A DNA stretch of 43,542 nucleotides, taken from an uncultured Bacteroidota bacterium. GTDB taxonomy: Bacteria; Bacteroidota; Bacteroidia; Chitinophagales; Saprospiraceae. The DNA is taken from contig CAIZLM010000209.1 in NCBI GenBank assembly GCA_903933805.1, positions 1-43,542 on the forward strand. Reading direction: 5' to 3'. A program made the position numbers and the translations under genes. Positions 3,556 through 40,803 of this stretch are shown piece after piece. A model generated the notes under the pieces. The model was not told where the DNA came from and did no database searches. It saw nothing but the letters and a program-made list of their open reading frames with translations. The stretch's first letter is position 1. Each line of letters starts with the position of its first letter.

Positions 3556-3584
3556 CCCGGCAGCGTTCCACGCTAACCAGTTAC
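3556..3584 (-). mobile_element. MITE fragment (right end only)
   Basis: The 29 bp keep the right arm (CAGCGTTCCACG) and the terminal repeat CTAACCAGTTAC; the left end is lost. GCTTTTTG follows it at 3585-3592 and GCTTTTTTG precedes it at 3547-3555, which looks like an 8-bp target duplication with one extra T. The terminal repeat supplies the TAG stop of the WbqC-like gene. Confidence 0.7.
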
Positions 3585-4187
3585 GCTTTTTGCTAATATT
3601 TCGCCACCGTGTTTCCCGCAACAAAAGAGCAGATCGAGTACCGACATGTTGGGGACAAAGCCATGTTTTTCCTCGAATACCTGTGGGTATCGAGCCGTGT
3701 TATGCTGATCAAGGAGATTTTCTTGTGGTGGTGAATAAGTTTCACTCAAGGTCAGGGTGCCTTTCCAGCCCATTTTTTTTGTGAAAATAAACGCCATCAA
3801 TGCCTGGTTATAATCGAAAAGAAAGGCGTATTTTTTTTCATAGAACGGCCGAATGTCGTCGCAATAATGGTCGAAATATGGCGCATTTCCGTAGGCTGTT
3901 AGGATGGTTCGCCAGTGTTGCCGTTGCCAGGCTTCGTCGTAAGCGATTCGTACGGCGCGGACATCGGTTTGCTGGTGCTTGCCTTTGACGAGCGGGATAC
4001 TCAGCCGTTGGATACCATTGGGCCCAACCACGTGGGCGCGGTTGCGCATGCTGCCTTTTTGGTAGTTTTCGCAGGCTTCGATGACCACGATGTCTGCGTT
4101 CCAACAGGCTGTACTCCAAGCCATTGACGGCAGATAAGCGGTAGGGAGCAGTATTTTTTGCACATTAAGGTCAGGTATAACAATCAT
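3573..4187 (-). CDS. WbqC family protein
   Basis: The 204-residue protein matches the WbqC-like family (PF08889): LLPTAYLPSMAWSTACWNAD at the N-terminus, then ENYQKGSMRNRAHVVGPNG and LSIPLVKG, and WQRQHWRTILTAYGNAPYF in the middle. The family is often found near O-antigen or glycan genes, but its biochemical role is not settled. The start ATG overlaps the TraB/GumN stop (ATGA), so the two genes are probably translationally coupled. The last three residues (V-T-G) and the TAG stop are encoded by the terminal repeat of a MITE fragment, so the native C-terminus was replaced or trimmed by insertion. Confidence 0.88.
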   Translation of the reverse strand: MIVIPDLNVQKILLPTAYLPSMAWSTACWNADIVVIEACENYQKGSMRNRAHVVGPNGIQRLSIPLVKGKHQQTDVRAVRIAYDEAWQRQHWRTILTAYGNAPYFDHYCDDIRPFYEKKYAFLFDYNQALMAFIFTKKMGWKGTLTLSETYSPPQENLLDQHNTARYPQVFEEKHGFVPNMSVLDLLFCCGKHGGEILAKSVTG

Positions 4188-4987
4188 GGGGCAGAAAAAG
4201 ATTCAACACGACAGCCAGCATTTTTCAAGAAACGCAGCATACCCTTTCCACCGGGCAGGTGTCCAGCACCGACGGCACAAAACACGGATTGGGTGTGCAT
4301 GAGTTCCAAAAATCGCTTTGTCATGAGGCGATTTCGCCGGCAGATCAATATTTTTCTCATACCCTTTGCGTCTTTTTTTGCAGCCTTGTAGAGTGCCCGA
4401 AGTTCGCCATTGGCGTAGCGCTGCATCATTTTCAGCAGGCGTTTTTTTTGTCGATCCTGGTTTTTTAACGCCCAGGTAAGTCCTTTGAGGTGCATTTCAA
4501 AGGGTATTTTATCCAGGGTGTTCAGTTGATCGGCAAAAGATTCCAGGCCTGTGGTTGTTTTGCCGAGGCTACGGGCATGGTTCCACAGCGTTTCATCAAG
4601 GGAATGGGACATTTCCTCCGCCATAAAAACGGTGCTCACCATGGTTGTCACGCGCATGGGATGTTGAAATTGCAGGGCATCTGCGGTTGTACCCAGTTTT
4701 TTTCTGGCAAAATAGTCGAGGTGTTTCCATGCGCCACGGGAAAGGAAATCCTGGAGGGACTTGCCCTCCGGCAGAGACAGTGCCTCTGCCAAAGCAGCGG
4801 GATCCGCTTCTGAAAAGTCAAATTCAGTGGCAAAGCAGTCACAAGTGCCAATTTTGGTTTTCGTGGTGTCAAGCCACCCGAAAGCCCGTATGTCGCGGAC
4901 GTGCATTGTACCAAACAGATAAGAGGGTGTTGTGCAATCGGGCGGCGTTATTTGCCACAAAAGGGCGTTTTTTTCCATCATTATCAT
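4184..4987 (-). CDS. TraB/GumN family protein
   Basis: This 267-residue protein carries the TraB/GumN signature: YLFGTMHVRD near residue 24, CFATEFDF near residue 51, RRNRLMTKRFLE and the C-terminal VGAGHLPGGKGMLRFLKNAG. The fold is related to the EreA/ChaN-like Tiki superfamily of putative metalloproteases, with GTMH and GAGH histidines as likely metal ligands. No signal peptide is seen, unlike many Bacteroidota homologues. The N-terminus offers three close starts (Met1, Met3, Met4). It is the first gene of a pair with WbqC, with a 4-bp overlap. A full-length MITE sits 44 bp upstream of the start. Confidence 0.85.
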   Translation of the reverse strand: MIMMEKNALLWQITPPDCTTPSYLFGTMHVRDIRAFGWLDTTKTKIGTCDCFATEFDFSEADPAALAEALSLPEGKSLQDFLSRGAWKHLDYFARKKLGTTADALQFQHPMRVTTMVSTVFMAEEMSHSLDETLWNHARSLGKTTTGLESFADQLNTLDKIPFEMHLKGLTWALKNQDRQKKRLLKMMQRYANGELRALYKAAKKDAKGMRKILICRRNRLMTKRFLELMHTQSVFCAVGAGHLPGGKGMLRFLKNAGCRVESFSAP

Positions 4988-5030
4988 CGTTTGTACGCCA
5001 TCCGCGTGCAGGAAAAAATGTTACTAAAAT

Positions 5031-5192
5031 GTAACTGGTTAGGTGGCACGCTGTCTGGCCCCAAAAGGTCCATTTTCCGCCATACTTGGCAGATTTTTTT
5101 GACTAAAGCGCTGCTATGGCCTACAAAAATCCGCTTCTTCTGGCAAAAATGGCCACTTTTTTGCCTCAGACGCGACCATGCTAACCGGTTAC
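5031..5192 (+). mobile_element. MITE, long form (162 bp)
   Basis: The ends are GTAACTGGTT and AACCGGTTAC. The flanking octamers are ACTAAAAT (5023-5030) and ACCAAAAT (5193-5200), 7 of 8 identical, consistent with a target duplication. The centre holds an inner hairpin (GCAGATTTTTTTGAC against GCCTACAAAAATCCGC). It occupies about half of the 320-bp gap between the TraB gene and the NTPase gene; the rest (4988-5030, 5193-5307) shows nothing recognisable. Confidence 0.9.
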
Positions 5193-5307
5193 ACCAAAAT
5201 AAGCAGGAGCAATGTTTTCCGGCCAAAAACCCACAACAGGGCTAAGCCTGAAGCATAAAAAGCTGCGATTACAAGGAGAACGCGCCGTTATTGAACGGTG
5301 ATGACGG

Positions 5308-5892
5308 TCACCAAATTTTCACCATTGGGACGCCTTTTTCTTTTGCTTCAGTTGCTTCGAGGATCAACGCTGCTACTGCTTCCCGGGTGCGATTGCCTGT
5401 ATCAATCACGAGGTCAAAGTTATCGGGATTGGTGCTATCAGCGCCGTATTTTTTTAAAAACCGTGCGTTTTCGCTGTTTTTCCGTTCGATTATTTTTTGG
5501 ACGGCTTCTTCCTGACTGGCGTATTGTTCGGTGTCTCGGCTTGGGTCGTGGAGGATGCGCTGTGCTGCCACGGCCACATCTGTGCGCAGGAACACCTTGA
5601 AGGAATTGGGCAAGAAGAACCAAGCCATGCGGCTGTCAACAACATATCCCTCAGGATCATGTCCCAGCGATGCGAAAATACTGTCAATACGTTCGTCTAT
5701 GCTGGGGTCAATATCTGCGCGTTTGTTCATTTCGAGGGTATCCAGCCCCAACGCTTGGGCCAGTCGGCGCTGTATTCGTCCGGTAGAAACGTATTCAAAG
5801 CCTGTTTTTTCACACAAAATTTGTGATACAGCGCTTTTTCCGCTGCCCAAGTCTCCGGTGAGGGTAATTTTAGTATCGGGTGCTATTTGCAT
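5308..5892 (-). CDS. cytidylate kinase-like P-loop NTPase
   Basis: The 194-residue protein starts with a P-loop, KITLTGDLGSGKSAVSQIL, at residues 8-26, followed by FEYVSTGRIQRRLA, which matches the (d)CMP kinase-like family that includes archaeal-type cytidylate kinases. A DSRMAWFF motif follows in the middle, as in family members where the residues after the aspartate bind the monophosphate. It is shorter than bacterial Cmk (about 225 residues) and is better described as cytidylate-kinase-like. The substrate is not established. It stands alone on the minus strand, preceded by a 468-bp gap. Confidence 0.8.
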   Translation of the reverse strand: MQIAPDTKITLTGDLGSGKSAVSQILCEKTGFEYVSTGRIQRRLAQALGLDTLEMNKRADIDPSIDERIDSIFASLGHDPEGYVVDSRMAWFFLPNSFKVFLRTDVAVAAQRILHDPSRDTEQYASQEEAVQKIIERKNSENARFLKKYGADSTNPDNFDLVIDTGNRTREAVAALILEATEAKEKGVPMVKIW

Positions 5893-6360
5893 GTATTTTA
5901 CTGAAGTGGGCGCTAAGGTAGTTCAAAAAAATATCCTGTGTCAATGGAGCAGCCAAGTACAACCACGTAAAGAAATGTTGGGGATAATTTTCAGTGTAGT
6001 ACCACAGCATTATTGTCATTCAGATGCAATCCGGGCGAATTTCAAAGGCGTTTTTTCTGGTCGGCTGTTATGTTGTTTGGCAACTGGATGGGGTCGATCG
6101 CGGTAGCGCATGAAGGGTTATTTTGTTTCAGTGCCGACCACCTCTTTGGTTGTCCATACCTTGGATTGGTATTACCGCTGGAGTGTTGGTATCAATCTAT
6201 TTTACGAGCTTGACCTTACGGGCAAATTGGTGCGCAATTCAAGGATGACCAATTATGGAATAATGACCTTTGTTCGGTATAAAGTGTTTGGACAAAATCC
6301 GGAATACAACCGATTTTACCCCAATCCAGATGGTGGCAGGCGACATTAAGGGGGTTATAA
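5893..6360. other. 468-bp gap, possible decayed coding sequence
   Basis: No MITE copy is found here. The only item of note is a 79-codon open frame at 6110-6349 on the plus strand. The segment 5893-6109 has short broken frames and nothing I recognise. A promoter for the minus-strand NTPase gene should lie close to 5893, where TATTTTTTTG on the minus strand weakly resembles a -7 box. Confidence 0.35.
6110..6349 (+). CDS. small hypothetical protein or gene remnant
   Basis: A 79-residue frame opens with ATGAAGGG and ends 11 bp before the PPK2 stop, convergent with it. The product is rich in aromatic and alternating polar/non-polar residues (WYYRWSVGINLFYELDL), which could be part of a beta-barrel, but no family is recognised. 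It has no clear promoter or ribosome site. It could be a remnant of a larger gene or a chance frame. Confidence 0.2.
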   Translation: MKGYFVSVPTTSLVVHTLDWYYRWSVGINLFYELDLTGKLVRNSRMTNYGIMTFVRYKVFGQNPEYNRFYPNPDGGRRH

Positions 6361-7110: not shown

Positions 7111-7154
7111 GGACAGTGATCGGTATGGAAGCGTTACGGATTTTTTCTGATAAT

Positions 7155-8353: not shown

Positions 8354-8425
8354 GTAACTGGTTGGGTGACACGCTTCGTCTGGCGGGAAATGACCACTTT
8401 TTTGTCTCAGACACTAACCAGCTAC
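8354..8425 (+). mobile_element. MITE, short form (72 bp)
   Basis: The ends are GTAACTGGTT and AACCAGCTAC. The junction differs from the other short copies: CACGCTTCGTCTGG joins the outer left arm directly to the right-arm TTCGTCTGG motif. No 8-bp direct repeat is seen on the flanks. The right terminal repeat overlaps the 3' end of the SRPBCC gene and supplies its stop codon. Confidence 0.8.
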
Positions 8426-8872
8426 TGAAAAATATTTTTCCAGAATTTTGAAGCGGTATGCGAAGATTTCCTGCACCTTTTTGTGTACAAACAATTTGCC
8501 CGCCACCCAGCCGAAGACGGACTTTCCAATGTCGTAGTGCAGCAAATCAGTCATCATGACACCACCATCCACCGCTCGGAAATGGTGTTCATGGTGCCAA
8601 ATATTGTAAGGGCCTTTTCGCTGTTCATCCACAAAAAAAACATGGTCTTTGATGTGGGTAATCTCTGTACACCAGTTGAGGGGAATATTCAACATTGGTT
8701 TGATTCGATAGGTGATAATCAGTCCTTCATACATCTGCTCGGGCAGCACGGAAGTGATTTCGAATACCAGGTCATCTGGCGTAACCAGGTTGAGGTTTTT
8801 GGGCGTGGCAAAGAAATTCCAAGCCGCGTCAAGCGATATGGGAAGAAATTGTTCTTGTTGTAGTTTGTGCAT
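8414..8872 (-). CDS. SRPBCC family protein
   Basis: This 152-residue protein has the START/SRPBCC pattern: an N-terminal beta strand with FLPISLDAAWNFFATPKNL, then LNIPLNWCTEITHIKDHVFF and GGVMMTDLLHYDIGKSVFGW, ending with a long C-terminal helix (VQEIFAYRFKILEKYF). Such proteins bind hydrophobic ligands in a helix-grip pocket; the ligand here is unknown. The last codons (V-A-G) and the TAG stop lie within the terminal repeat of a MITE. It is divergent from hemW, with 67 bp between the start codons. Confidence 0.85.
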   Translation of the reverse strand: MHKLQQEQFLPISLDAAWNFFATPKNLNLVTPDDLVFEITSVLPEQMYEGLIITYRIKPMLNIPLNWCTEITHIKDHVFFVDEQRKGPYNIWHHEHHFRAVDGGVMMTDLLHYDIGKSVFGWVAGKLFVHKKVQEIFAYRFKILEKYFSVAG

Positions 8873-10091: not shown

Positions 10092-10171
10092 GTGACTGGT
10101 TAGGTGGCACGCTGCCTGGCCCAAAAAATAGCCACTTTTTCGTCTCAGACGCGACCACCCTAACCAGTTAC
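10092..10171 (+). mobile_element. MITE, short form (80 bp)
   Basis: The ends are GTGACTGGTT and AACCAGTTAC; the left one carries one change. The short-form junction is CTGGCCCAAAAAATAGCCAC. No clear 8-bp flanking repeat remains. It lies between hemW and the LptF/G gene. Confidence 0.85.
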
Positions 10172-10176: not shown

Positions 10177-10206
10177 CGTTTACTTTTTTTCTCAGACGCG
10201 ACCATG
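10177..10206 (+). mobile_element. MITE right-arm fragment
   Basis: CTCAGACGCGACCATG, preceded by a T-run, repeats the right arm of the element, only a few bases after a complete short copy. It could be the remnant of a second insertion or of a partial duplication. The terminal repeat is not recognisable. Confidence 0.45.
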
Positions 10207-10378
10207 ATCGGTCGTCACACCAACCAAGTTGGTATCCGCTGTGTCACGACAGCAAGACCCCAAAATTCCATGCTACTCCCACGCCACAAACCCGTACCTT
10301 GCAGTGTTTTTGGGAAATGGTAAAAAGTCGCAAACCAGCGGCAACGGCTTCCCAACTTCCCGTCGGGTAAACATGAAC

Positions 10379-11478: not shown

Positions 11479-11640
11479 GTAACTGGTTAGCGTGGTCGCG
11501 TCTGAGACAAAAAAGTGACTATTTTTTGCCAGACGAAGCGGATTTTTGTAGGCCGTAGCAGCGTTACGGTCAAAAAAATCTGCGAAGAATGGCGGAAAAT
11601 GGGCCTTTTTGGGCCAGACAGCGTGCCACATACCAGTTAC
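11479..11640 (-). mobile_element. MITE, long form (162 bp)
   Basis: The ends are GTAACTGGTT and ACCAGTTAC. The flanking octamers AAAACGAA (11471-11478) and AAAACCAA (11641-11648) match at 7 of 8 positions. It begins 14 bp after the stop of the LptF/G gene and ends 31 bp before the M28 gene. Confidence 0.92.
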
Positions 11641-12780: not shown

Positions 12781-12858
12781 GTAACGGGTTGATTGGTACG
12801 CTGTCTGGCCCAAAAAGACCCATTATTTTGTCTCAGACGTGACCACCCAATCATTTAC
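12781..12858 (+). mobile_element. MITE, short form (78 bp), partly decayed
   Basis: The ends are GTAACGGGTT and CAATCATTTAC, both diverged. The flanks GACAATGC and GACAAAGA share only the first five bases. Its right end lies where the -33 element of the pyrB promoter would be expected. Confidence 0.78.
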
Positions 12859-12883: not shown

Positions 12884-13807
12884 GTGAAACAATTCTCCAC
12901 GCGACACCTCATCGGCATCAAGGACATTACAGAAGATGACATTCAAAGCATCTTCGAAACTGCTGATAATTTCAAAGAAGTCATCAACCGCCCCATCAAA
13001 AAAGTGCCCAGTTTGCGCGATGTGACGGTTGCTAACTTATTCTTTGAAAGCAGCACCCGTACCCGTGTATCTTTTGAACTGGCAGAAAGGCGGTTGAGTG
13101 CCGATATTGTCAATTTTACGGCCAGCAGCAGCAGTGTCAGCAAGGGAGAAACACTGTTGGACACGGTGAACAACATCCTAGCCATGAAAGTCGATATGGT
13201 GGTGATGCGACACCCGGCCCCTGGCGCCTGTGTGTACCTGGCTTCCCGAATCCCCGCCAATATCATCAATGCCGGTGATGGGACACACGAACATCCGACC
13301 CAAGCCCTGCTTGACGCTTTTTCTATCCGTGAAAAACTTGGAGATGTAGCCGGAAAAAAAATTGCCATTATTGGCGATATCCTCCACAGCCGCGTGGCAC
13401 TCAGCAATGTATTCTGCCTACAAAAACTCGGCGCCAAAGTACGCGTCTGTGGGCCACCAACGTTAATTCCAAAACACTATGCCGCCCTCGGGGTCGAGGT
13501 CAGCCACGATGTGCGTGATACCCTGCGCTGGTGTGATGTGGCCAATGTCTTGCGCATACAACTGGAACGGCAGGACATCAAATACTTCCCAAGCCTCCGA
13601 GAGTACCACCAATACTTTGGTATCACCCGGCAAATGCTGGACGAGTTGGATCGCCCCATTGTGCTCATGCACCCCGGCCCCATCAACCGAGGCGTAGAAT
13701 TGTCCTCAGATGCTGCTGACAGTCCCCACAGTATTATCCTTGATCAGGTCGAGAATGGTGTTGCCGTACGGATGGCGGTGCTGTATTTGCTGGCGGCGCA
13801 GCCGTAG
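12884..13807 (+). CDS. pyrB: aspartate carbamoyltransferase catalytic subunit
   Basis: The 307-residue protein begins with GTG. It carries the carbamoyl-phosphate motif FESSTRTRVSFELAERRL near residues 50-67, VVMRHPAPGACVYLA, GDGTHEHPTQALLDAFSIRE and the C-terminal IVLMHPGPINRGVE. It catalyses carbamoyl phosphate plus aspartate to carbamoyl aspartate, the first committed pyrimidine step. No pyrI regulatory subunit is next to it. The next gene, dnaG, starts 30 bp after its stop in the same direction. Confidence 0.96.
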   Translation: MKQFSTRHLIGIKDITEDDIQSIFETADNFKEVINRPIKKVPSLRDVTVANLFFESSTRTRVSFELAERRLSADIVNFTASSSSVSKGETLLDTVNNILAMKVDMVVMRHPAPGACVYLASRIPANIINAGDGTHEHPTQALLDAFSIREKLGDVAGKKIAIIGDILHSRVALSNVFCLQKLGAKVRVCGPPTLIPKHYAALGVEVSHDVRDTLRWCDVANVLRIQLERQDIKYFPSLREYHQYFGITRQMLDELDRPIVLMHPGPINRGVELSSDAADSPHSIILDQVENGVAVRMAVLYLLAAQP

Positions 13808-17681: not shown

Positions 17682-17843
17682 GTAACTGGTTGGCGTGGTC
17701 GCATCTGAGACAAAAAAGTGACCATTTTTTGCCAGACGAAGCGGATTTTTGCAGGCCATAGCCTCGCTACGGTCAAAAAAATCGGCGAAGTATGGCGGAA
17801 AATGGGCCTTTTTGGCCAGACAGCGTGCCATCTAACCAGTTAC
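17682..17843 (-). mobile_element. MITE, long form (162 bp) with perfect 8-bp target duplication
   Basis: The ends are GTAACTGGTT and CTAACCAGTTAC. GATTTTAA occurs on both sides (17674-17681 and 17844-17851). The inner hairpin GCGGATTTTTGCAGGCC is intact. It interrupts a probable sigma/anti-sigma/DUF4252 operon just before the first DUF4252 gene. Confidence 0.95.
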
Positions 17844-17891
17844 GATTTTAATGGTAAAAAATATTTTTTCTCTGGACAGCTGTGGTGTTTA

Positions 17892-17914
17892 CAGCGTGCC
17901 ACCTAACCAGTTGC
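17892..17914 (-). mobile_element. MITE fragment (right end)
   Basis: CAGCGTGCCACCTAACCAGT followed by TGC matches the right arm and terminal repeat; the left end is not recognisable. The terminal repeat supplies the last codons and TAG stop of the anti-sigma-like gene. Confidence 0.7.
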
Positions 17915-18493
17915 TTTCTTTTTAAAAACCCTGTCAATATTCTCGAGGTGGTCGGCTCCTTTTGCAGCTGCCAGTCGGCCTTTCTTAATTTTGGAAGAAA
18001 CGAGTGACAGTGCAGCCTTAATTTCTTCCATGGCGTATTGGGCTTCAAGCTTTTCTGTTGTTTTTTTTCGCATTTTGCTGCCTGTTTTTGCAGGGCATTT
18101 TTTTTCTTCAGTAGAAACTTGCGCAAGCATTAAACCGGAGTGGAGGTCCTGTTCAATAGCCACCTGTGCGGGTACTTGTCCAACGGGCTGGAGGCTGATT
18201 GCGGTTGTTTTAGCGGTAAATGTCATTTTCCACCCGATGCCTACCGCCAACAACAGAATAATCGAAGCGGCCGCGGTTAGAAAAATGCGATACGGCCTGT
18301 ATTTAACAGCAGCGCGCACCATACGCACCTGTTGTTCTTCCCGGAGGGCTTGAAAGAATGGCGAATAAAGTTGCAAGTCTTCCGGGATATCATTGGAAGC
18401 AAAGAAGTTTTTCAGTTGGCGATCTTCTTCGATGGTCGTTTCAGCCGCCCAGTATTTTTCCAATAGCGCCCGAATAGGTTGTGGGTCAATCAT
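17903..18493 (-). CDS. anti-sigma factor-like single-pass membrane protein
   Basis: The 196-residue protein starts MIDPQPIRALLEKYWAAETT, followed by IEEDRQLKNFFAS. This matches the N-terminus of Bacteroidota anti-sigma-like proteins (helix, then a loop and PFFQALREEQ). One membrane segment (IFLTAAASIILLLAVGIGW) follows near residue 75, then a basic, Lys-rich outer region. It follows the ECF sigma factor and probably holds it inactive at the membrane (inference). An ATG at 18550, directly after the sigma stop, would add 19 residues. The C-terminal A-T-G and the stop codon come from a MITE terminal repeat, so the natural C-terminus may be altered. Confidence 0.7.
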   Translation of the reverse strand: MIDPQPIRALLEKYWAAETTIEEDRQLKNFFASNDIPEDLQLYSPFFQALREEQQVRMVRAAVKYRPYRIFLTAAASIILLLAVGIGWKMTFTAKTTAISLQPVGQVPAQVAIEQDLHSGLMLAQVSTEEKKCPAKTGSKMRKKTTEKLEAQYAMEEIKAALSLVSSKIKKGRLAAAKGADHLENIDRVFKKKATG

Positions 18494-19144: not shown

Positions 19145-19307
19145 GCAACTGGTTAGCGTTGTCGCGTCTGGCCCAAAAAGGCCCGTTTTTTGTCAGACGA
19201 AGCAGATTTTTGCAGGCCTTAGCAGCGCTACGGTCAAAATAATATGCGACGTATGGCGGAAAATGGGCCTTTTTTGTCTCAGACTCGACCACCTAAAAAA
19301 GGTTCAC
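19145..19307 (-). mobile_element. MITE, long form (163 bp), mosaic and decayed at the right end
   Basis: The left end is GCAACTGGTTAG; the right end is decayed (CCTAAAAAAGGTTCAC). Both arms are mosaics: the left outer part is of the TCGCGTCTG type but continues with GGCCCAAAAAGGCCC, normally found in the opposite arm, and the right arm shows the reverse. This suggests exchange between the two arms. No target duplication is left. It fills half of the gap between the sigma factor and aceE. Confidence 0.85.
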
Positions 19308-19399: not shown

Positions 19400-22075
19400 A
19401 TGGGCGATACACACGCACTCGACGACTGGAAACTTGAACAGGAAGAATGGCTTGAAGCACTGGAAGAAGTGCTTGAAGGGGAAGGCAAAGGCCGGACTGC
19501 AGAACTTTTCCAGCGTATGCGCTATTTATTGGCGCGACATGGTGTTGCAAATGGCGGCGCGGCCCTCAACACCCCGTATCTTAATTCAATTGCAGCCGAA
19601 GATACGCCGGCCTATCCCGGCGATTTGGCGTTGGAACAGCGCATTGAGCACATTATTCGTTGGAATGCGCAGGCGATGGTGTTGCAAGGCGCCGACAAGG
19701 ACTTGGCGTTGGGGGGGCATATTGCCACTTTTGCGGCTTGTGCCACCATGTTGGAGGTGCTGTTCAACCATTTTTTGCGCAAGCGATCTGCTGAATATGG
19801 CGGTGACCTGCTGATGTTTCAGGGGCATGCATCGCCGGGTATTTACGCCCGGGCTGCCTTTGAGGGTCGGTTGAGTATGCAAGCCATTGCTGACTTCCGC
19901 CAGGAATTGTTGGGTGGCGTGAGTTCTTATCCACATCCACGCCGCATGCCTACGTTCTGGCAAGCGCCTACGGTGAGCATGGGGCTTGGTCCCATGACCG
20001 CTATCTATCAGGCACGATACATGAAATACCTCGAAAATCGAGGACTAAAGCCTGAAAATGGCGGCAAAATATGGCATTTTATCGGCGACGGTGAAATTGA
20101 TGAGCCGGAAATTTACGGTACGATTGGCTTGGCCAGCCGCGAAAACCTAGACAATATCGTCTTTGTTGTCAATTGCAACTTACAGCGCCTCGATGGACCT
20201 GTTCGCGGAAATGGAAAAATTATTCAGGAAGTAGAACGCCATTTTCTGGGTGCTTCTTGGGAGGTAATCAAGGTCATTTGGGGCGGTGAATGGGATGCCT
20301 TGTTGGAAAAAGACGTGGATGGAATTTTACTACACCGTTTGGAGGAGCTCGTGGACGGCGATTTTCAGGAAATAAATGCGGTCAACAGCGGTGCGCATCT
20401 TCGCAAAAAACTTACGGGTGAAAACGACCGTATTGCGGCCTTGCTCGCTGATTATACCGACGAACAACTCAGGGCCATGCGACGTGGCGGCCATGATGCC
20501 GAGAAGGTGTATGCGGCCTACGAACGTGCAGTACGTGCGGGCAAACCCGTAGCCATCATCGTACAAACGGTGAAGGGTTATGGTATGGGCCAGGCGGCTG
20601 AGGGTAAAAATACGGCCCACCAGACCAAGGATTTGTTGGATAAAAATCGCCTGGAAACCCGTGATCGCTATGGCATACCCCTGTCAGATGAAGCAGCAAT
20701 AGCCGCTTCATTCTGGTTCCCCGATGCCAACAGCCCAGAAGCACAGTACCTGCATGCCCGCCGTCAGTCCCTGGGAGGCTATTTGCCGGAACGGAGCGAT
20801 GTTTACCCCCGTTTCAATCTGCCGGGGCTCGAGCTCTTTGAAAAACAACTGAAGCCAGACGTAACGGCCAAACCAGTTTCTACCACCGGCGCTGTTGTGG
20901 ATATGATGACCCAACTGATTCGAAATCAGGAAATTGGGAAGTATATTGTCCCCATCGTTCCCGATGAAGCACAGACCTTCGGCATGCACCCCTTGTTCAA
21001 TTCTGCCCAAATATGGAACCAGCGCGACCAGCGCTATACCCCGTTGGAAATTGGATTTTCAACCATCAAATACAAGGAGTCTAAAACCGGACAAGTGCTC
21101 CAGGAAGGCATCAATGAAGACGGTGCTACGGCTTCTTTTACCGCAGCAGGCACCGCTTATGCCCTCCATGGCGTACCCACTATTCCGTTCTATATTTACT
21201 ATTCCATGTTTGGCTTTCAGCGCGTGGGCGATATGGTTTGGGCGGCTGCGGACATGATGTGCAAAGGCTTCCTCTTGGGGGGAACTGCCGGGCGCACCAC
21301 CCTGAATGGGGAAGGCTTGCAGCACCAAGACGGGCACTCGCACCTCATTGCGCAGACCGTTCCGAGTGTTTTATGTTATGATCCCGCCTTTGCTTATGAG
21401 CTCGCCGTGATTGTGCACGATGGTATTCGACGCATGTACGTTGAGAACGAACCAAAATTGTACTATATCACCGTGTACAACGAAAACCTGCAAATGCCTG
21501 CTATGCCAAAAGGGGTGGAGGAAGCCATCAAGCGGGGGATGTACCGATACCGTGCATCTGCCAAAAAATCGGCACAAACAGGGGTGAAAGCCCACTTATT
21601 GGGCTCCGGAGTCATTATGAAACAGGTACTCGAAGCCGCTGCATTGTTAGAAGCAGAGGGAGTAAGCACCGATGTTTGGTCGGTTACTTCTTGGACTGAA
21701 TTGTACCGCGACTGTACAGCTTGCGAACGATGGAACCTGTTACACCCAGGTGAAAAGGAAAAAGTATCCTTTTTGCAGAAAAGTTTGAAAGGGGAGGAGG
21801 GTGTTTTTGTGGCAGCCAGTGACTGGGTCAAGCTCACCTCCGGGCAATTGGCGCCTTGGATGCCACAGGATTATACCGCCTTGGGTACCGATGGTTTTGG
21901 TCTTTCAGAAAGTCGGGAAAGCCTCCGCGACTACTTCGAAATTTCGCCCAAATACATTGCTTTTGCGGCTGTTCGTCGGCTGAACAAACAGGGAAAAGTC
22001 AGCGACAAGTCCGTGAAAGATTTCATGAAGAAATACGGTGTTGATGCGAACAAGCTCGATCCAATGAGCGTATAA
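19400..22075 (+). CDS. aceE: pyruvate dehydrogenase E1, homodimeric type
   Basis: The 891-residue protein matches AceE: LALGGHIATFAACATMLEVL and GDLLMFQGHASPGIYARAAF in the N-terminal half, the thiamine diphosphate motif GDGEIDEPEI ending in FVVNCNLQRLDGPVRGNGKI near residues 230-275, and the transketolase-like central domain (TASFTAAGTAYALHGVPTIP). It decarboxylates pyruvate and acetylates the E2 lipoyl groups. No aceF or lpd follows, so E2 and E3 are elsewhere. The ATG at 19400 is preferred over upstream in-frame codons because it fits the family's length and follows the promoter box. A clear terminator follows the gene. Confidence 0.96.
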   Translation: MGDTHALDDWKLEQEEWLEALEEVLEGEGKGRTAELFQRMRYLLARHGVANGGAALNTPYLNSIAAEDTPAYPGDLALEQRIEHIIRWNAQAMVLQGADKDLALGGHIATFAACATMLEVLFNHFLRKRSAEYGGDLLMFQGHASPGIYARAAFEGRLSMQAIADFRQELLGGVSSYPHPRRMPTFWQAPTVSMGLGPMTAIYQARYMKYLENRGLKPENGGKIWHFIGDGEIDEPEIYGTIGLASRENLDNIVFVVNCNLQRLDGPVRGNGKIIQEVERHFLGASWEVIKVIWGGEWDALLEKDVDGILLHRLEELVDGDFQEINAVNSGAHLRKKLTGENDRIAALLADYTDEQLRAMRRGGHDAEKVYAAYERAVRAGKPVAIIVQTVKGYGMGQAAEGKNTAHQTKDLLDKNRLETRDRYGIPLSDEAAIAASFWFPDANSPEAQYLHARRQSLGGYLPERSDVYPRFNLPGLELFEKQLKPDVTAKPVSTTGAVVDMMTQLIRNQEIGKYIVPIVPDEAQTFGMHPLFNSAQIWNQRDQRYTPLEIGFSTIKYKESKTGQVLQEGINEDGATASFTAAGTAYALHGVPTIPFYIYYSMFGFQRVGDMVWAAADMMCKGFLLGGTAGRTTLNGEGLQHQDGHSHLIAQTVPSVLCYDPAFAYELAVIVHDGIRRMYVENEPKLYYITVYNENLQMPAMPKGVEEAIKRGMYRYRASAKKSAQTGVKAHLLGSGVIMKQVLEAAALLEAEGVSTDVWSVTSWTELYRDCTACERWNLLHPGEKEKVSFLQKSLKGEEGVFVAASDWVKLTSGQLAPWMPQDYTALGTDGFGLSESRESLRDYFEISPKYIAFAAVRRLNKQGKVSDKSVKDFMKKYGVDANKLDPMSV

Positions 22076-22165: not shown

Positions 22166-22243
22166 GTAACTGGTTAGCGTGGTCGCGTCTGAGACAAAAA
22201 AGTGGCCTTTTTGGGCCAGACAGCGTGCCACCTAACCAGTTAC
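22166..22243 (-). mobile_element. MITE, short form (78 bp) with perfect 8-bp target duplication
   Basis: The ends are GTAACTGGTTAG and CTAACCAGTTAC, perfect inverted repeats. TTTTGTTT flanks both sides (22158-22165 and 22244-22251). The right duplication overlaps the dnaN stop codon (22250-22252), so insertion happened exactly at the 3' end of dnaN without changing the product. Confidence 0.95.
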
Positions 22244-22249: not shown

Positions 22250-23368
22250 TTAATTGTTCAGCATCACGGGCATCACCAGCATGAGAATTTCGCGGTTGGT
22301 ATTGTCTGTTTCTACTGGGGTAAGAATACCGGCGCGGCTTGGGCTGGAAAGTTCCATTTTGACCTCTTCTGAGCCGAGAATACCGAGCATTTCCGCGAGA
22401 AATCGGGCATTGAAAGCGATTTTCATGGGCGTACCGTCAAAGACACAAGCCATTTGTTCCGTTGCTTCATTGGAGAAGTCAAGGTCTTGAGCGCTGATGG
22501 TTAGGCTTTTATCTGTAACATCCAACACGACTTGGTTGGTGGTTTTATTGGCATAAATCGCGATTCGTTTCAAAGAATTCTGGAAATCGGCGCGGTTGAC
22601 GACCATGTTGTTTGGATTGTCTATTGGGATCACGGCGTTGTAGTCCGGGTAGCGTGCGTCTATGAGACGGCAGACCAGGCTCATGTTGCCGAAGTTGAAA
22701 AAGGCATTGGCTTTGTTGAAAGAAATGGTGACAGCATCATTGGCCGGCAGGGCATTTTTGAGTAGGTTGAGCGCTTTTTTGGGTATAATAAAGGTGGTAT
22801 TTACTTCGCCGGCGAGGTGGTGGGTGCTGTATTTCACCAATTTGTGGGCATCGGTGGCCACACAAATCAGTTTGTCCATGTCGATCTGAAAATACACGCC
22901 CGTCATGGCCGGTCTCAGTTCGTCACTGGAGGTAGCGAACACCGTATTGCTGATGGCATCGAGTAAGTATTGGCTGTTTATTTTCACGGTTTCCACAGAA
23001 TCGGGTTCTGGGATATTCGGGAAATCGGCGCCATTTTCCCCGGCCAGTTTGTACTTGCCATAGGAGGAAGTGATTTCGATGCCCCAGTTTTCGCTGTTGA
23101 CCGTAAAGGTTACGGGCTGTTGGGGCAGTGCCTTGAGCGTATCCAGCAAAATTTTGGCAGGAACGGCCACGGTAAAGTCATCATCGCCCACAACGTCAAT
23201 GGTGGTGGCAATGCTGGTCTCTTGGTCGGTTGCTCCGATGGTTAATTTTTTATTTTCTATTTTGAAAAGGAAATCTTCGAGAATGGGCAGAACTGGGTTG
23301 GAGCCGATGGCGCCGGCCGCAATCTGAAGTTGTTTGAGGAGATCGGAAGAGGCGATGCTGAATTTCAT
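22250..23368 (-). CDS. dnaN: DNA polymerase III sliding clamp, beta subunit
   Basis: The 372-residue protein shows the three-domain beta-clamp pattern: KFSIASSDLLKQLQIAAGAI at the N-terminus, LPILEDFLFKIENKKLTIGATDQE, SDELRPAMTGVYFQIDMDKL in domain 2, and ILMLVMPVMLNN at the end. It forms the ring-shaped processivity factor of replication. It is on its own here, not beside dnaA or recF. The stop codon overlaps the target duplication of a MITE. Confidence 0.96.
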   Translation of the reverse strand: MKFSIASSDLLKQLQIAAGAIGSNPVLPILEDFLFKIENKKLTIGATDQETSIATTIDVVGDDDFTVAVPAKILLDTLKALPQQPVTFTVNSENWGIEITSSYGKYKLAGENGADFPNIPEPDSVETVKINSQYLLDAISNTVFATSSDELRPAMTGVYFQIDMDKLICVATDAHKLVKYSTHHLAGEVNTTFIIPKKALNLLKNALPANDAVTISFNKANAFFNFGNMSLVCRLIDARYPDYNAVIPIDNPNNMVVNRADFQNSLKRIAIYANKTTNQVVLDVTDKSLTISAQDLDFSNEATEQMACVFDGTPMKIAFNARFLAEMLGILGSEEVKMELSSPSRAGILTPVETDNTNREILMLVMPVMLNN

Positions 23369-23643: not shown

Positions 23644-23803
23644 GTAACTGGTTAGGTGGTCGCGTCTGAGACAAAAATAGCTATTTTTTACCAGACAAAG
23701 CTGATTTTTATAGGCCGTATCCTCGCTATGGTCAAAAAAAAGGGCGAAGTATGGCGTAAAATGGGCCTTTTTGGGCCAGGCAACGTGCCAATTGATCAGT
23801 TAC
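23644..23803 (-). mobile_element. MITE, long form (160 bp)
   Basis: The left end is GTAACTGGTTAG; the right end is diverged (TTGATCAGTTAC). The inner hairpin is present with substitutions. Flanks ATCTTTCT and CTTTATTT do not match well, so this copy is probably old. It ends 33 bp before the M16 gene. Confidence 0.88.
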
Positions 23804-23836
23804 CTTTATTTAAACAATTTGTCAACCATTTAAGTC

Positions 23837-25148: not shown

Positions 25149-25210
25149 GCCGCCTACCTTGTAGCCATAAAACAAAGGGTGTTAAGGCAACAACGTAGGC
25201 GGTTCGTTTT
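25149..25210 (+). terminator. possible terminator after the M16 gene
   Basis: CCGCCTAC and GTAGGCGG form an 8-bp stem around a long loop that also contains GTTGCC/GGCAAC pairing, followed by TTCGTTTTTT. The long loop makes it weaker than the aceE terminator. Confidence 0.4.
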
Positions 25211-25305
25211 TTGACATACTATGACCATTTTTTTACCGTACGCTGCAGTAGCCTGTTTCGCTTGGCAAAAAACGACTACTTATTAGTCTCAAACGCGACC
25301 ACCTA
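25211..25305 (+). mobile_element. degenerate MITE, right half recognisable
   Basis: CGCTTGGCAAAAAACGACTA and TAGTCTCAAACGCGACCACC match the right arm; the left arm and both terminal repeats are decayed. It lies between the M16 gene and the mreB promoter in a 340-bp gap that otherwise holds only the possible terminator and promoter. Confidence 0.55.
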
Positions 25306-25340
25306 ATTTTTTTTGGTAGAATTAAAATTTCATCTTTTTT

Positions 25341-30520: not shown

Positions 30521-30598
30521 GTAACTGGTTCGGTGGTCGCGTCTGGGACAAAAAAATGAACCTTTTTGGGCCATACAGCGTGCCACCTAACCGGTTAC
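30521..30598 (-). mobile_element. MITE, short form (78 bp)
   Basis: The ends are GTAACTGGTT and AACCGGTTAC. The flanking octamers TCAACAAA (30513-30520) and GCAACAAA (30599-30606) match at 7 of 8 positions. It sits in the 367-bp divergent gap between the FKBP gene and the giant secreted-protein gene; the rest of the gap contains the latter's promoter and no convincing gene. Confidence 0.93.
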
Positions 30599-36317: not shown

Positions 36318-36396
36318 GTAACTGGTTAGGGTGGTCGCGTTTGAGACAAAAAAATGGGCCTTTTTTGGCCAGACAATGTGCCACCTAAACAGTCAC
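36318..36396 (-). mobile_element. MITE, short form (79 bp) with perfect 8-bp target duplication
   Basis: The ends are GTAACTGGTTAG and CTAAACAGTCAC. GAAAATTT flanks both sides (36310-36317 and 36397-36404). The right duplication overlaps the prmA stop codon (36403-36405), as at dnaN. Confidence 0.95.
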
Positions 36397-37462: not shown

Positions 37463-38740
37463 ATGAACAATCGACGCAGTTTTATCCGCCAAACAGCCGC
37501 TTTGCTGGGAAGTGTTGCATTACACCAGAATTTTGCAGCAGCATTTCCGGCCTTTCCCCAACCCTTTGACCCAACCACTTTTCCCAGTGATCAGTCAGAG
37601 GATGATTTCTGGCGGCAAATTCGCTTGGCCTATGCTGCGAGCCCCTCGATCATCAACCTTAACAACGGCGGGGTAAGTCCAGCGCCCCGGGCCACCATGG
37701 ATGCGTTGGATTATTACAACCGCATGTGCGCTGAAGCGCCGTCTTACTATATGTGGCGCATCCTGGACCAGGATCGAGAGCCGTTGCGTGAAAACCTTGC
37801 CACCATCGCCGGGGCAGCAGTGGATGAAATTGCGATCAATAGAAATGCCACAGAAGCCTTGAATTCGATTGTATTTGGCTTGGATTTCAAACCGGGCGAC
37901 GAAGTAGTACTGTCGAAATATGATTACCCCAACATGATCAATGCCTGGAAACAACGCGAAAAACGGGACGGGATCAAACTCGTTTGGGTGGACCTCGACC
38001 TGCCTTCTGAGGATGAAGATTACCTCGTAAAGGCTTACACTTCCAAGTTTACAGACAAGACAAAACTGGTGCACGTCACCCACATCATCAACTGGAATGG
38101 CCAGATTCTTCCAGCACGTCGCCTTGCCGATGCCGCCCACGAAAGGGGCATCGAGGTGCTACTCGATGGGGCGCATTCATTCGCTGTGCTCGATTACAAA
38201 ATACCCGACTTGGGATGTGACTACTTTGGCACGAGTCTGCACAAATTTCTTTGCGGCCCTTTTGGTACCGGCATGCTGTGGATTCGCAAGGATAAAATTG
38301 AACGGGTTTGGCCTTTGTTGTCGAACAATGAACCAAACAGCGGCGATATCCGAAAGTTTGAAAGCTTGGGCACCCGGAGCTTCCCCATTGAAATGGCCCT
38401 TGGCTATTCCATTGATTTACACAACTTAATTGGCGGTGAACGCAAGCAAAAACGACTGCATTACCTCAAAAATTATTGGATGTCGCGGGTGCGCGATGTG
38501 CCTGGTATCAAGTTTTATACCTCGCCCAACCCAAAATGGAGCTGCGCCATCGGAAACTTTGGGTTTGAAGGCAAAAAACCGGTCGAAATTGCCGATAAAT
38601 TGTTTAATCAATACAAAATTCACACGGTGGCCATTGATTGGGAAAAGATAAGCGGGGTACGGGTAACCCCCAATGTGTACACCTTGACGGAAGAATTAGA
38701 CAAACTGGTAAAAGCAATCCGTGCCATGGGCGCTGGATAG
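37463..38740 (+). CDS. Tat-exported aminotransferase class V-fold PLP enzyme
   Basis: The 425-residue protein starts MNNRRSFIRQTAALLGSVAL, a twin-arginine-type signal (RRSFI). The class V fold follows: LNNGGVSPAPRATMDALDYY, INRNATEALNSIVFGLDFKP, VLLDGAHSFAVLDYKIPDLG and DYFGTSLHKFLCGPFGTGML with Lys261 as the PLP lysine. It resembles isopenicillin-N-epimerase-like and cysteine-desulfurase-like proteins, but the substrate is unknown. Folding with PLP in the cytoplasm before Tat export fits the signal. Its stop is 3 bp from the convergent PLD-like gene. Confidence 0.87.
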   Translation: MNNRRSFIRQTAALLGSVALHQNFAAAFPAFPQPFDPTTFPSDQSEDDFWRQIRLAYAASPSIINLNNGGVSPAPRATMDALDYYNRMCAEAPSYYMWRILDQDREPLRENLATIAGAAVDEIAINRNATEALNSIVFGLDFKPGDEVVLSKYDYPNMINAWKQREKRDGIKLVWVDLDLPSEDEDYLVKAYTSKFTDKTKLVHVTHIINWNGQILPARRLADAAHERGIEVLLDGAHSFAVLDYKIPDLGCDYFGTSLHKFLCGPFGTGMLWIRKDKIERVWPLLSNNEPNSGDIRKFESLGTRSFPIEMALGYSIDLHNLIGGERKQKRLHYLKNYWMSRVRDVPGIKFYTSPNPKWSCAIGNFGFEGKKPVEIADKLFNQYKIHTVAIDWEKISGVRVTPNVYTLTEELDKLVKAIRAMGAG

Positions 38741-38743
38741 GAT

Positions 38744-39724
38744 TTATGTGGCAGATGCCCGTTCTAGGGTGGCAAGGAGTGCCAAAGCAGAGCCCTTGTA
38801 CGGTAGGATACCGCCCTTTGGTATCCTTGGAAGTTGTACCTGTTCGTTGGATGGTTGTGGCAGTATAAGCCAAGGAACAGTCCGGGAAATCAATGGCGGT
38901 ATGGCAGAGGTCAGTTCGGGATCCGAGCCCACAACACCCGTGCCCAACAGGGTGCCAGCAGGATGCACGGCTGTGAATATATCGTCCATTTGTACCCGCA
39001 AACAATAACGGTTGATCAATCGTTTGGCTGTTGGTCCGATGGCGGTGGATAAGCGCCACTGGCGGAAACGCTGCTCATCCCAAGCCCCATCTGTGTCCCA
39101 AGCAATTTTGCCAATGGGTGCCCTAAAATAGTGGCGTTGGTCATATACCCAAGCCTGCCATTCCGATGATGATTTTGCCACAACCAGCCATGTTTTTGCG
39201 CCTGAAACAACGTTTTTTCGCAGGTCTTGCATGTTCAATAGGGTAGGGCGGTACAGTTGGGTAAACACCACCTGCTTCGGTTGCGTGTTGCACAACTGTG
39301 CCAATCTCCGGCATCTTGCAACAGTGTCTTCCATTGCTTGTAGGAATTGTACCGCCAACTTAGAATCTTGGATGATGACCACATGGTCACACTGCGCTGC
39401 CCGGGTCCAGTTGTACGATCCGGTAAGTACTCGACAATCATCTGCAACCGCACATTTGTGATGGAGCAAATCTCGGCCAATATAGGCCAACACGTTAGCC
39501 CCAGCAGCTTCTAGGCGCTTAAAATCAAGTCCGTCGAATCTAAAATTGACTTGGTCAAAGTTGACCATTAGGCTAACAGATACCCCTCTGGCACAGGCAT
39601 CTAGCATGGTTTGAAAAATCAAAGGGTGGGTAAACCAACAAATGCCGACCCAGAGACTGAACCTGGCCGTTTCGATGAACGAAATGACGGCAGTATCGCA
39701 GTGCTGAAAGGTGGCTTTGTGCAT
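38744..39724 (-). CDS. phospholipase D-like domain protein with uncharacterised C-terminal region
   Basis: The 326-residue protein has a single PLD catalytic motif: LLHHKCAVADDCRVLTGSYN at residues 86-105, with His88, Lys90 and Asp95 in the HxKxxxxD arrangement, then WTRAAQ. The N-terminal part (ARFSLWVGICWFTHPLIFQTM) matches the usual PLD start. Single-motif PLD proteins such as Nuc and FAM83/MitoPLD-like enzymes act as dimers, often as nucleases. Residues from about 160 on, including WQAWVYDQRHYFRAPIG, match nothing I recognise. The cargo (DNA, RNA or lipid) cannot be told. Confidence 0.78.
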   Translation of the reverse strand: MHKATFQHCDTAVISFIETARFSLWVGICWFTHPLIFQTMLDACARGVSVSLMVNFDQVNFRFDGLDFKRLEAAGANVLAYIGRDLLHHKCAVADDCRVLTGSYNWTRAAQCDHVVIIQDSKLAVQFLQAMEDTVARCRRLAQLCNTQPKQVVFTQLYRPTLLNMQDLRKNVVSGAKTWLVVAKSSSEWQAWVYDQRHYFRAPIGKIAWDTDGAWDEQRFRQWRLSTAIGPTAKRLINRYCLRVQMDDIFTAVHPAGTLLGTGVVGSDPELTSAIPPLISRTVPWLILPQPSNEQVQLPRIPKGGILPYKGSALALLATLERASAT

Positions 39725-39777
39725 CGTTTAAAGGGTATATGCTTTCAAAGTTAACCATCTTAAACGAAAAATACAAG

Positions 39778-39789
39778 GTAACCGGTTAC
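39778..39789. repeat. 12-bp palindrome GTAACCGGTTAC flanked by an 8-bp repeat, MITE scar
   Basis: The palindrome is exactly what results when the left GTAAC joins the right TAACCGGTTAC through their shared TAAC. AATACAAG precedes it (39770-39777) and AATACATG follows (39790-39797), 7 of 8 identical, like the target duplications of complete copies. It lies 53 bp upstream of the PLD-like gene. Confidence 0.7.
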
Positions 39790-39901
39790 AATACATGCTA
39801 TTATCGATCTAAACAGCGAGCAAAAAGACACTTTTGGAACCTAAAGTCTGCGGCACTGTTTGACTTGTTCTGTATTTTATTGCCAAACGGCGTGTCGTTT
39901 T

Positions 39902-40060
39902 ACAACCAGTTGGGTGGGCCACGTCGGACAGTAAAAAACGTCTATTTTATGACAAAATATGCCCATTTTTTGACAATATTGCTGCTACGGTCTGTGAAAT
40001 TCGCTCCATCTACCAAAAAACGCCTACTTTTTTTGTCTCAGACGCGACCACCTAATCTAC
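39902..40060 (+). mobile_element. MITE, long form (159 bp), degenerate
   Basis: The left end ACAACCAGTTGGG and right end CCTAATCTAC are decayed, but GTCTCAGACGCGACCACC and the central TGCTGCTACGGTC-type hairpin are recognisable. No clean target duplication is left. It fills much of the 376-bp gap before the cytochrome gene. Confidence 0.75.
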
Positions 40061-40100
40061 CATTTTTTTTCACATCTTTGCACCGCGTGAACACCGCAAA

Positions 40101-40514
40101 ATGACTATGTTTAACATTAATAATCTCTTCCTAGTGCTCTTGGCAAGCCTTCTTCTGGCGGGCGTTTCCTGTGAAACCACCACGTATCAGGGTGGTGAGC
40201 GGCTTTATAAAACCATGTGCGCCAATTGTCACATGGATTCTGGGGAGGGCTTGGGAACATTGATACCACCGCTTGCCGGTTCTGATTACCTGGGAAAAAA
40301 CCTCGACAAGTTGCCCTGTATTGTCCGCTATGGTTTGCGTGATTCCATCACGGTCAACGGCAAGATATATGGCGAAAACATGGCGGGTATGCCGGGGTTG
40401 TCAGATATTCAAATCACCAATTTATTGAATTATATCAACAGCGCTTGGGGCAACAACAATCCCCCGTATAGTTTTGAGGAAGTGCAGCGTTTAATGGGGC
40501 AATGCAACAAATGA
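40101..40514 (+). CDS. c-type cytochrome lipoprotein
   Basis: The 137-residue protein starts with an N-terminal hydrophobic stretch (LFLVLLASLLLAGVSC) whose Cys24 is a likely lipidation site. The heme motif is CANCH at residues 40-44, and the downstream ENMAGMPGL region offers the axial Met. The pattern of one heme and about 90 residues matches monoheme class I cytochromes. It may be a periplasmic or membrane-anchored electron carrier. ATG 40107 is an alternative start. CATCTTTG at 40073-40080 is a one-mismatch -7 box. A decayed short MITE starts 16 bp after the stop. Confidence 0.88.
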   Translation: MTMFNINNLFLVLLASLLLAGVSCETTTYQGGERLYKTMCANCHMDSGEGLGTLIPPLAGSDYLGKNLDKLPCIVRYGLRDSITVNGKIYGENMAGMPGLSDIQITNLLNYINSAWGNNNPPYSFEEVQRLMGQCNK

Positions 40515-40530
40515 GGGTGCGCACATTTTT

Positions 40531-40605
40531 GTAACGGGTTGGGTGGTCGCGTCTGAGAAAAACAGGGCATTTTTTGACCTAAAATATTGATAATTAACCA
40601 TTTGC
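40531..40605 (-). mobile_element. MITE, short form (75 bp), degenerate
   Basis: The left end GTAACGGGTT and arm GTGGTCGCGTCTGAG are well preserved; the right end TTAACCATTTGC is decayed. No clear target duplication. It is one of two elements in the 305-bp gap between the cytochrome and fucosidase genes. Confidence 0.65.
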
Positions 40606-40640
40606 TATTTTTAAAAGTACCCTTTTTTTGTTCATTAAAA

Positions 40641-40803
40641 GTAACTGGTTAGGTGGCACGCTGTCTGGCCCAAAAAGGCCCATTTTCCGCCATACTTCGC
40701 AGATTTTTTTGACTGTAGCGATGCTACGGCCTGCAAAAATCTGCTTCGTCTGGCAAAAAATGGCCACTTTTTTGTCTCAGAGGCGACCACACTAACCAGT
40801 TAC
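40641..40803 (+). mobile_element. MITE, long form (163 bp) with perfect 8-bp target duplication
   Basis: The ends are GTAACTGGTTAG and CTAACCAGTTAC. CATTAAAA flanks both sides (40633-40640 and 40804-40811). It is the best-preserved long copy, with a clear inner hairpin (GCAGATTTTT against CAAAAATCTGC around GTAGC/GCTAC). It ends 16 bp before the fucosidase start codon, so it lies in the expected promoter region of that gene. Confidence 0.96.

Follow-up and report, generated by a model that had tools for sequence, protein, structure and literature searches.

The usual view of MITEs is that each derives from a single transposon and is a dead end. Other short palindromic intergenic elements, some of them internally deleted, include ERIC, Correia (CREE/NEMIS) and RUP, all of which make TA duplications. 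Prokaryotic type II MITEs, as defined in PMC10969869, show similarity to an IS that is confined to the TIR, target duplications, an intergenic location and a stem-loop. Among autonomous elements, one of the closest described systems is the ISBst12 group of the IS66 family, whose members carry ends of the GTAACTnnTnAG kind, an 8-bp duplication and a single transposase gene; ISDge4, a member of this group, has the ends GTGACTACTCAGCA and GTAACTGCTCAGCA and an 8-bp repeat (PMC12898284).

The repeats analysed here lie in a window of 43,542 nucleotides, the whole stretch of DNA under study. They share with type II MITEs the features listed above, but differ in their near-constant length and in a core that is conserved across many genera with different ends. 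Like ERIC, Correia and RUP they are short, palindromic and intergenic and have a deletion form, whereas their duplications measure 8 bp (3 bp in the IS5-like relatives discussed below). In contrast to the ISBst12 group they carry no transposase, and the part common to both is the terminal 12-16 bases. They possess TIRs and a fixed 8-bp duplication and are short, intergenic and present in high copy, as expected of MITEs.

The earlier note had described 14 near-complete copies with 12-bp ends, occurring in both orientations, and each of these points was borne out, all 14 being present at the starts given. The 12-mer GTAACTGGTTAG matches the window 29 times with up to two mismatches, against 2.1 expected, and none of 100 shuffles reached 29. 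A profile search delimits 15 loci and a merge of BLAST matches 18 when fragments are counted; BLAST found no matches in Markov-resampled DNA. Four of the 14 flanking octamer pairs are perfect and three match at 7 of 8 positions, as had been claimed; the remaining seven match at no more than 4 of 8. The perfect duplications flank a long element of 162 bp at 17682..17843 (plus strand; GATTTTAA), short elements of 78 bp at 22166..22243 (plus; TTTTGTTT) and 79 bp at 36318..36396 (plus; GAAAATTT), and a long element of 163 bp at 40641..40803 (minus; CATTAAAA). Octamers matching at 7 of 8 flank two 162-bp long elements, at 5031..5192 (minus, the strand being chosen as the A-first reading, GTAACTGGTTAG-NGTGGTCGCGTC...) and 11479..11640 (plus), and a 78-bp short element at 30521..30598 (plus). 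The other copies are a short, further deleted element of 72 bp at 8354..8425 (minus), a short element of 80 bp at 10092..10171 (minus; octamers 2 of 8), a diverged short element at 12781..12858 (minus), a diverged long element at 19145..19306 (plus; profile 19145-19296), both of whose outer arms look A-type by eye, a long element of 161 bp at 23644..23804 (plus), an old diverged long element at 39902..40060 (minus; profile 39904-40055) and an old diverged element at 40531..40605 (plus; profile 40531-40600). A partial element at 25201..25306 (minus) corresponds to the fragment previously placed at 25211, and end fragments at 3550..3584 (plus), 10184..10223 (minus) and 17869..17914 (plus) lie outside the profile list.

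Two earlier descriptions stand in part. The repeats had been placed between genes, and only one of 301 loci lies inside a predicted gene; this needs qualification, however, because three minus-strand genes stop inside element ends, namely a wbqC-like gene at 3573-4187 (stop within the TIR at 3573-3584), the gene at 8414-8872 (within the TIR of the 72-bp element) and the gene at 17903-18493 (TIR 17903-17914). The density had been called unusual, and the window, with 18 loci in 43.5 kb, does lie above the genome average, which is itself about one locus per 5 kb.

The 163-bp copy at 40641..40803 served as query for genome searches, as the earlier note had proposed. By estimate there are 770-830 copies, about 2% of the 4.2-Mb genome, and this exceeds the 711 ERIC copies given for Photorhabdus (PMC10969869). 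The 301 loci come from 1.17 Mb, 38 of them at contig or stretch edges being left unplaced. The consensus has the ends GTAACTGGTTAG and CTAACCAGTTAC, and the family falls into two size classes, a long form of 162-163 bp and a deletion form of about 78 bp, the 77-bp consensus of the latter equalling the long form with a single internal segment of about 85 bp removed. No transposase gene is expected inside the element, given its 162-bp length and the stop codons in its TIRs. Target duplications of 8 bp flank 59 of the 99 full long copies and 28 of the 67 full short ones. Had the octamers matched no better than chance, the proposal of mobility would have failed; instead, among 74 copies delimited in 435 kb of the genome, 31 have octamers that differ at no more than one position, whereas 1000 permutations gave 0.85 on average and 5 at most. 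Perfect flank matches in this set occur 21 times at 8 bp, three times at 7 bp and never at 9 bp. Duplications with at most one mismatch are retained by 33 of 40 long copies that are less than 4% divergent and by 3 of 22 that are more than 12% divergent, and the closest long copies are one base apart. The many copies, the exact 8-bp duplications, the occurrence of both orientations and the loss of duplications with divergence therefore show dispersal by transposition, in agreement with the earlier claim. The family is one of tiny, non-coding MITEs, present in very high numbers and active in recent times.

Searches for insertion sites in their empty state gave no clean example. The element is absent from all of the 29 best traB loci of congeners, but in only one of the 29 is the neighbour on the far side of the insertion site preserved. 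When 80 joined flanks were compared with the genome itself, ten matches spanned the junction, nine in the same stretch and one elsewhere at 70% identity; compared with the other loci covered, the 80 gave no junction-spanning match. The nine same-stretch matches are what neighbouring element copies would give. A scan of genome contigs returned one record, from an uncultured Flavobacteriales MAG, with no matching duplication by eye. Rfam gave no match in the window at gathering scores, and none at E values up to 1 for 40600-40850.

Two IS66-family elements of relatives, L091 in genome G009 and L113 in G057, are bounded on either side by GTAACTGGTTAG and flanked by perfect duplications of 8 bp (TTTTCAGA and AAAAAAAT, respectively, each present twice). 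Both combine a single transposase gene, GTAA ends and an 8-bp duplication; the gene of L091 matches PF03050, and L113, which is uninterrupted, was traced by its likeness to the L091 transposase. The combination of GTAACTnnTnAG-like ends, an 8-bp duplication and a single transposase gene recurs in L118, L121 and L126, and six of 30 transposase loci (L113 among them) have perfect 8-bp duplications and ends starting GTAACT. A shortened IS66-family element with GTAACTGGTTAG ends occurs in G056, where the flanks match at 6 of 8 positions. Within the genome that carries the window, relics of such a transposase lie on contigs C104 and C332; no intact transposase with GTAACTGGTTAG ends was found there, and its three PF03050 matches differ. 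Two of these, on C216 with ends GTAAGCCTCCCAC (GTAAGCC...) and on C180 with ends GTAACTATCCAG, were rejected as partners, both being unlike the window copies; the third, on C186, is a fragment with a GCAAGCC end by eye. A reading of C332 as an IS bearing a MITE-like arm was discarded, since the piece on its left (L143, 1422-1467) proved to be a truncated element, separated by 7 bp from the following one. Across 904 kb (21% of the genome), TIR pairs 200-6000 bp apart with octamers differing by at most one mismatch revealed no long element with these ends. By BLASTN the element consensus has 12-16 terminal bases in common with L091, L113 and L092, internal matches having E values of at least 0.56; internal sequence common to IS and element, the hallmark of type I, was thus not found. 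Because the same 12-bp ends and 8-bp duplications occur in IS of relatives, and relics persist here, we infer, as the best mechanism, that a DDE transposase from a single-gene element of the IS66 family (ISBst12-like) mobilises the repeats in trans; it would recognise GTAACTGGTTAG and make the 8-bp duplications.

The core of the element extends well beyond this genome. Matches to a core model occur in 30 of the 42 genus genomes and in 61 of the 199 from the family as a whole (the present genome counted). Of 35 chosen elements, 32 measure 160-164 bp. The ends on this body, of at least two transposase types, are either IS66-type, with 8-bp duplications, or IS5-like, with 3-bp duplications. Elements with AGAC or GAGC ends, whose 3-bp duplications read ANT or TNA, presumably belong with the IS5 family (subgroups ISL2 and IS1031); IS5-family MITEs have 3-bp duplications as these relatives do, whereas in the window the ends are IS66-type and the duplications span 8 bp. 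Duplications of 3 bp flank 19 of 20 AGAC copies in G007 and G009 and 9 of 12 GAGC copies, but are perfect in only two of seven AGAC elements with matching bodies (G003, G023 and G008). A profile built from IS66-ended cores alone matches the AGAC-ended elements of these three genomes and the ACAC-ended ones of G003 (E values of 7e-11 to 8e-15), and none of 2300 hairpin-preserving decoys. Of 23 other-ended targets this profile misses six and finds seven weakly (E above 0.01), so for those targets homology depends on intermediate elements. No IS with AGACTTGTTGC ends and no intact AGAC-ended IS was identified among the relatives' loci examined.

These relatives bear upon a simpler account, in which a species-specific type II MITE burst of an IS66-family IS would suffice, likeness elsewhere reflecting shared ancestry and slow co-evolution of the TIRs with no change of transposase family. 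GTAA-type ends do vary by only a few positions between species (GTAACTGGTTAG, GTAAAAACTTAG, GTAACTATCCAG) and fit the IS66 elements of the genus. On a core tree of 118 columns, in which 12 of 32 forks have support under 80, the end classes need eight changes (least possible three, shuffled mean 16.9). The well-supported branches alone force two changes for AGAC, two for GAGC and one for GTAA, so that a single origin of the IS66-type ends could be accommodated; it appears in 0% of 200 bootstrap trees. Against this account, the AGAC- and GAGC-ended elements have 3-bp rather than 8-bp duplications, the GAGC ends are similar to a PF01609 element found in G009, the AGAC-ended bodies of G003, G023 and G008 match the IS66-type profile as noted above, and the deepest supported split in the core tree has AGAC ends on either side; we consider it unlikely. 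We read the family instead as hairpin mini-transposons, whose relatives appear to keep a folded body of about 162 bases under the ends of different jumping genes. The literature searched, where most subscription journals were missing, yielded no report of such end switching.

The body itself folds from end to end into one imperfect hairpin, in which compensatory changes are seen. Two-sided changes affect 24 of its 49 stem pairs, 95.2% of cells are paired, and for four of five measures none of 500 shuffles equalled the observed value. A process of template switching (quasipalindrome correction) could keep such a hairpin by copying mutations from arm to arm, giving covariation without structural selection. 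Traces of this kind are present: the same seven of 99 full long copies swap five stem pairs, and two-sided changes within copies number 103 against 17.5 expected, 60 of them pair-restoring, part of which shared ancestry may explain. Template switching would, however, erase mismatches, yet these persist and are asymmetric, the less stable strand showing 169 pyrimidine-pyrimidine against 32 purine-purine mismatches in 20 elements; in 34 of 35 elements, moreover, it is the same strand that has the more stable fold. Because the elements are related, neither count is independent. That template switching alone maintains the hairpin therefore seems doubtful to us. One-sided changes in dead copies are about equally G-T and A-C (167 and 177), which counts against the overall explanation given below. 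Helical phasing of the deletions (162-78=84 and 162-57=105, multiples of 10.5) was abandoned, the independent deletions being too few, the short consensus being 77 bp with 85 bp removed, and lengths of 72, 46 and 41 misfitting.

Intergenic, palindromic, high-copy elements with T-tracts also recall REP/BIME sequences spread by RAYT (TnpA-REP) and acting as transcription terminators or mRNA stabilisers. Positions among 159 elements in tandem gene pairs lend this some colour, 22% being no more than 10 bp from the 3' end of the upstream gene and 3% equally close to the start of the downstream one. REP/BIME palindromes are nevertheless 20-40 bp long and lack target duplications; the length of 162 bp, the exact 8-bp duplications and the IS66-type TIRs contradict such an origin, which is highly improbable. 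A terminator role is unsupported, since 59 of the 262 copies that could be placed sit between divergently transcribed genes, a setting that requires no terminator. A host-side RNA role was likewise set aside, as element orientation relative to neighbouring genes is unbiased (85 versus 70, p = 0.26).

Taken as a whole, an IS66-moved MITE with a persistent hairpin body, exchanged ends and a relevant single-stranded form is probably the correct explanation. The hairpin body would be the persistent unit, its ends being exchanged as transposases came and went, and exchange between IS66-type and IS5-like ends would have occurred at least once and probably more often. In the least certain step, one strand may matter in single-stranded form, as RNA or ssDNA, for propagation rather than for host genes. 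More tentatively, we entertain a family-wide class of mobile hairpins of about 162 nt in which a strand-specific single-stranded unit might be selected, with ends repeatedly swapped between IS66 and IS5-like types at nearly constant length, perhaps through exchange inside the hairpin and subsequent copying between its arms. A hairpin of constant length and biased strand raises the question of what role the hairpin plays. Survival of the body beyond its transposases, through a change of ends, would account for the persistence of such elements once the partner IS is lost, a loss that seems to have happened in this genome.

The element copies and flanking octamers reported for the window in the earlier note, which described a dense MITE-like family with 12-bp ends, are real. 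Within this genome (4,206,178 bases in 336 contigs) the arm pattern GTAACTGGTTAGGTGGNNCGC, at up to one mismatch, occurs 333 times and its backwards-read control not once, and the pattern GTAACTGGTTAGNNTGG occurs 252 times and in none of 99 other family genomes sampled. Profile searches of 1.17 Mb, or 28% of the genome and mostly picked for holding matches, yielded 301 merged element loci covering 34,194 bases. Scaled by the genome-wide pattern counts, these loci give an estimate of 770 or 830 copies, 2.1-2.2% of the genome. Contigs C1-C19, sampled in contig order except for one C4 stretch added for a match, held 29 loci in 162 kb.

Perfect flank matches are most frequent at 8 bp, in line with the target duplication length originally proposed. 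Octamers with at most one mismatch flank 59 of the 99 full long copies and 28 of the 67 full short copies; they are kept by 33 of 40 long and 9 of 10 short copies at below 4% divergence, and by 3 of 22 and 5 of 33, respectively, at above 12%. The most similar pair of long copies differs by one base, and the short consensus is identical to the long consensus minus one 85-bp stretch and one base. Using genes predicted by a simple hexamer script rather than a standard gene finder, only one of the 301 loci lies inside a gene, and 20 gene 3' ends and five gene starts fall within elements; the elements showed no preferred orientation with respect to genes. The window genes at 3573, 8414 and 17903 have their stop codon within the terminal inverted repeat (TIR) of an element, and another element sits between the convergent pyruvate dehydrogenase E1 and DNA polymerase III beta genes (19400-22075 and 22250-23368). 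Among 303 unmerged elements, 19 pairs of neighbours lie at most 40 bp apart, 11 of them spaced by 8 bp (loci L028, L060, L031, L033, L067, L074 and L077) or 7 bp (L070, L029, L027 and L143), as if new copies targeted the duplication adjoining an old one. The long-element profile matched none of 29 congener traB loci (proteins 41-65% identical); near-side wbqC is present in 21, and the kinase gene beyond the element is kept in only one, so these loci are weak evidence for empty sites.

The IS66 transposase domain (PF03050) has three matches in this genome, none bearing the ends of the window elements. IS66-family elements of relatives carry GTAACTGGTTAGCC at both ends. One of these, L091 in genome G009, has the duplication TTTTCAGA twice and is broken by two insertions with IS1-like frames; L113 in G057 is 1554 bp long with AAAAAAAT twice, and L092 in G056 is a shortened element whose flanks match at six of eight positions. 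The L091 transposase as query found 30 loci, among which L113, L118, L121, L122, L126 and L129 have perfect 8-bp duplications; their ends include GTAACTATTTAG and GTAACTATTCAG. Contig C104 of the window's genome contains two shortened relics close to this transposase (L144; 11021-11389 and about 13213-13579), which are similar, internally deleted and about 2 kb apart, one with ends GTAACTGGTTAG and CTAACCAGATAC; C332 contains a close 63-residue fragment. G007 carries a multi-copy IS66 element (L085, L089, L093 and L096) with ends GTAAAAACTTAG, also those of a G003 element family, and in a MAG filed as uncultured Flavobacteriales an IS66 tnpA-like sequence adjoins an element copy (L038; CAJAVU010000005.1, from about 306). 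Ends of the same kind, with an 8-bp repeat, are described for ISDge4 of the ISBst12 group, whose transposition has been observed in Deinococcus geothermalis (PMC12898284).

Related elements from five congeners (n = 20) measure 155-163 bp, with one of 186 bp, and have GTAA-type (IS66-type), AGAC or ACAC ends. The AGAC type, TAGACTTGTTGCGGTG, is present in 21 of the 42 genomes of the genus (99 matches in G007, 70 in G009, 30 in G008 and 26 in G023), and its pattern has no match in the window's genome. AGAC copies have the 3-bp duplication ANT in 19 of 20 cases in G007 and G009, and a perfect 3-bp duplication in two of seven checked in G003, G023 and G008; AGAC-ended short forms of 57-59 bp (L252, L261 and L262) are comparable to the 78-bp short form of the window's genome. 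Elements ended by GAGCnTGTT show 3-bp duplications in 9 of 12 cases, and their ends resemble those of a PF01609 element of 905 bp in G009; the TNA flanks of this PF01609 element agree in 13 of 15 copies.

A profile built from the cores of IS66-ended elements alone was searched against 23 other-ended targets: seven matched at E values of 7e-11 to 8e-15, comprising AGAC-ended (G003, G023 and G008) and ACAC-ended (G003) elements, three at 4e-7 to 1.4e-3, seven weakly and six not at all, with no match among 2300 hairpin-preserving decoys. A joint core model, which was trained on GTAA- and AGAC-ended elements together and is therefore not an independent test of their homology, matches in 30 of 42 genus genomes and in 61 of 199 family genomes (43 of 112 genera), the window's genome counted. 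Ten of 14 loci from other genera were cleanly delimited (all but L324, L328, L332 and L334); these ten measure 161-164 bp and bear either IS66-type ends or IS5-like ones. Of 35 elements chosen at roughly one per genome per end class, 32 are 160-164 bp long, in a set where the end finder searched only 140-180 bp for 20 elements and from which variants of 172-173 bp (G016 and G049) and 186 bp (G012) had been excluded. On their core tree the end classes together require eight changes; taken one class at a time, AGAC requires five, GAGC five and GTAA three, of which well-supported branches alone force two, two and one. There is good support for the element body having borne ends of both kinds, IS66-type and IS5-like, and repeated switching between ends is likely, though not forced.

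The element has no Rfam match. In 15 full elements, 24 of the 49 pairs of the hairpin carry two-sided changes and the proportion of paired cells is 95.2%, structure and covariation measures coming from one alignment; none of 500 shuffles matched the observed values on four measures and 14 did on the fifth (further pair types), and sliding partners by one to three columns lowers paired cells to 36-51%. A five-stem-pair swap in the outer arm, possibly an arm exchange, is common to 7 of 99 full long copies (L026 12840, L029 10648, L034 19443, L044 7167, L064 6351, L066 17906 and L076 17345). With orientation assigned from core sequence alone, the A-first strand gives the more stable fold in 34 of 35 elements, all but the one from G043. 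On the other strand of 20 elements, mismatches comprise 169 pyrimidine-pyrimidine versus 32 purine-purine and 75 A-C versus 39 G-T, the elements in these strand and mismatch counts being related and the observations not independent; one-sided changes in dead copies comprise 167 G-T and 177 A-C. As a double-stranded cruciform should favour neither strand, we infer that selection acts on a single-stranded form during propagation, and hypothesize a single-stranded function of the element.

The window feature is, on strong support, an IS66-type MITE burst, which is of a known kind. What is unusual is that its body recurs bearing ends that belong to other transposases, its length being almost constant and its strand bias fixed.
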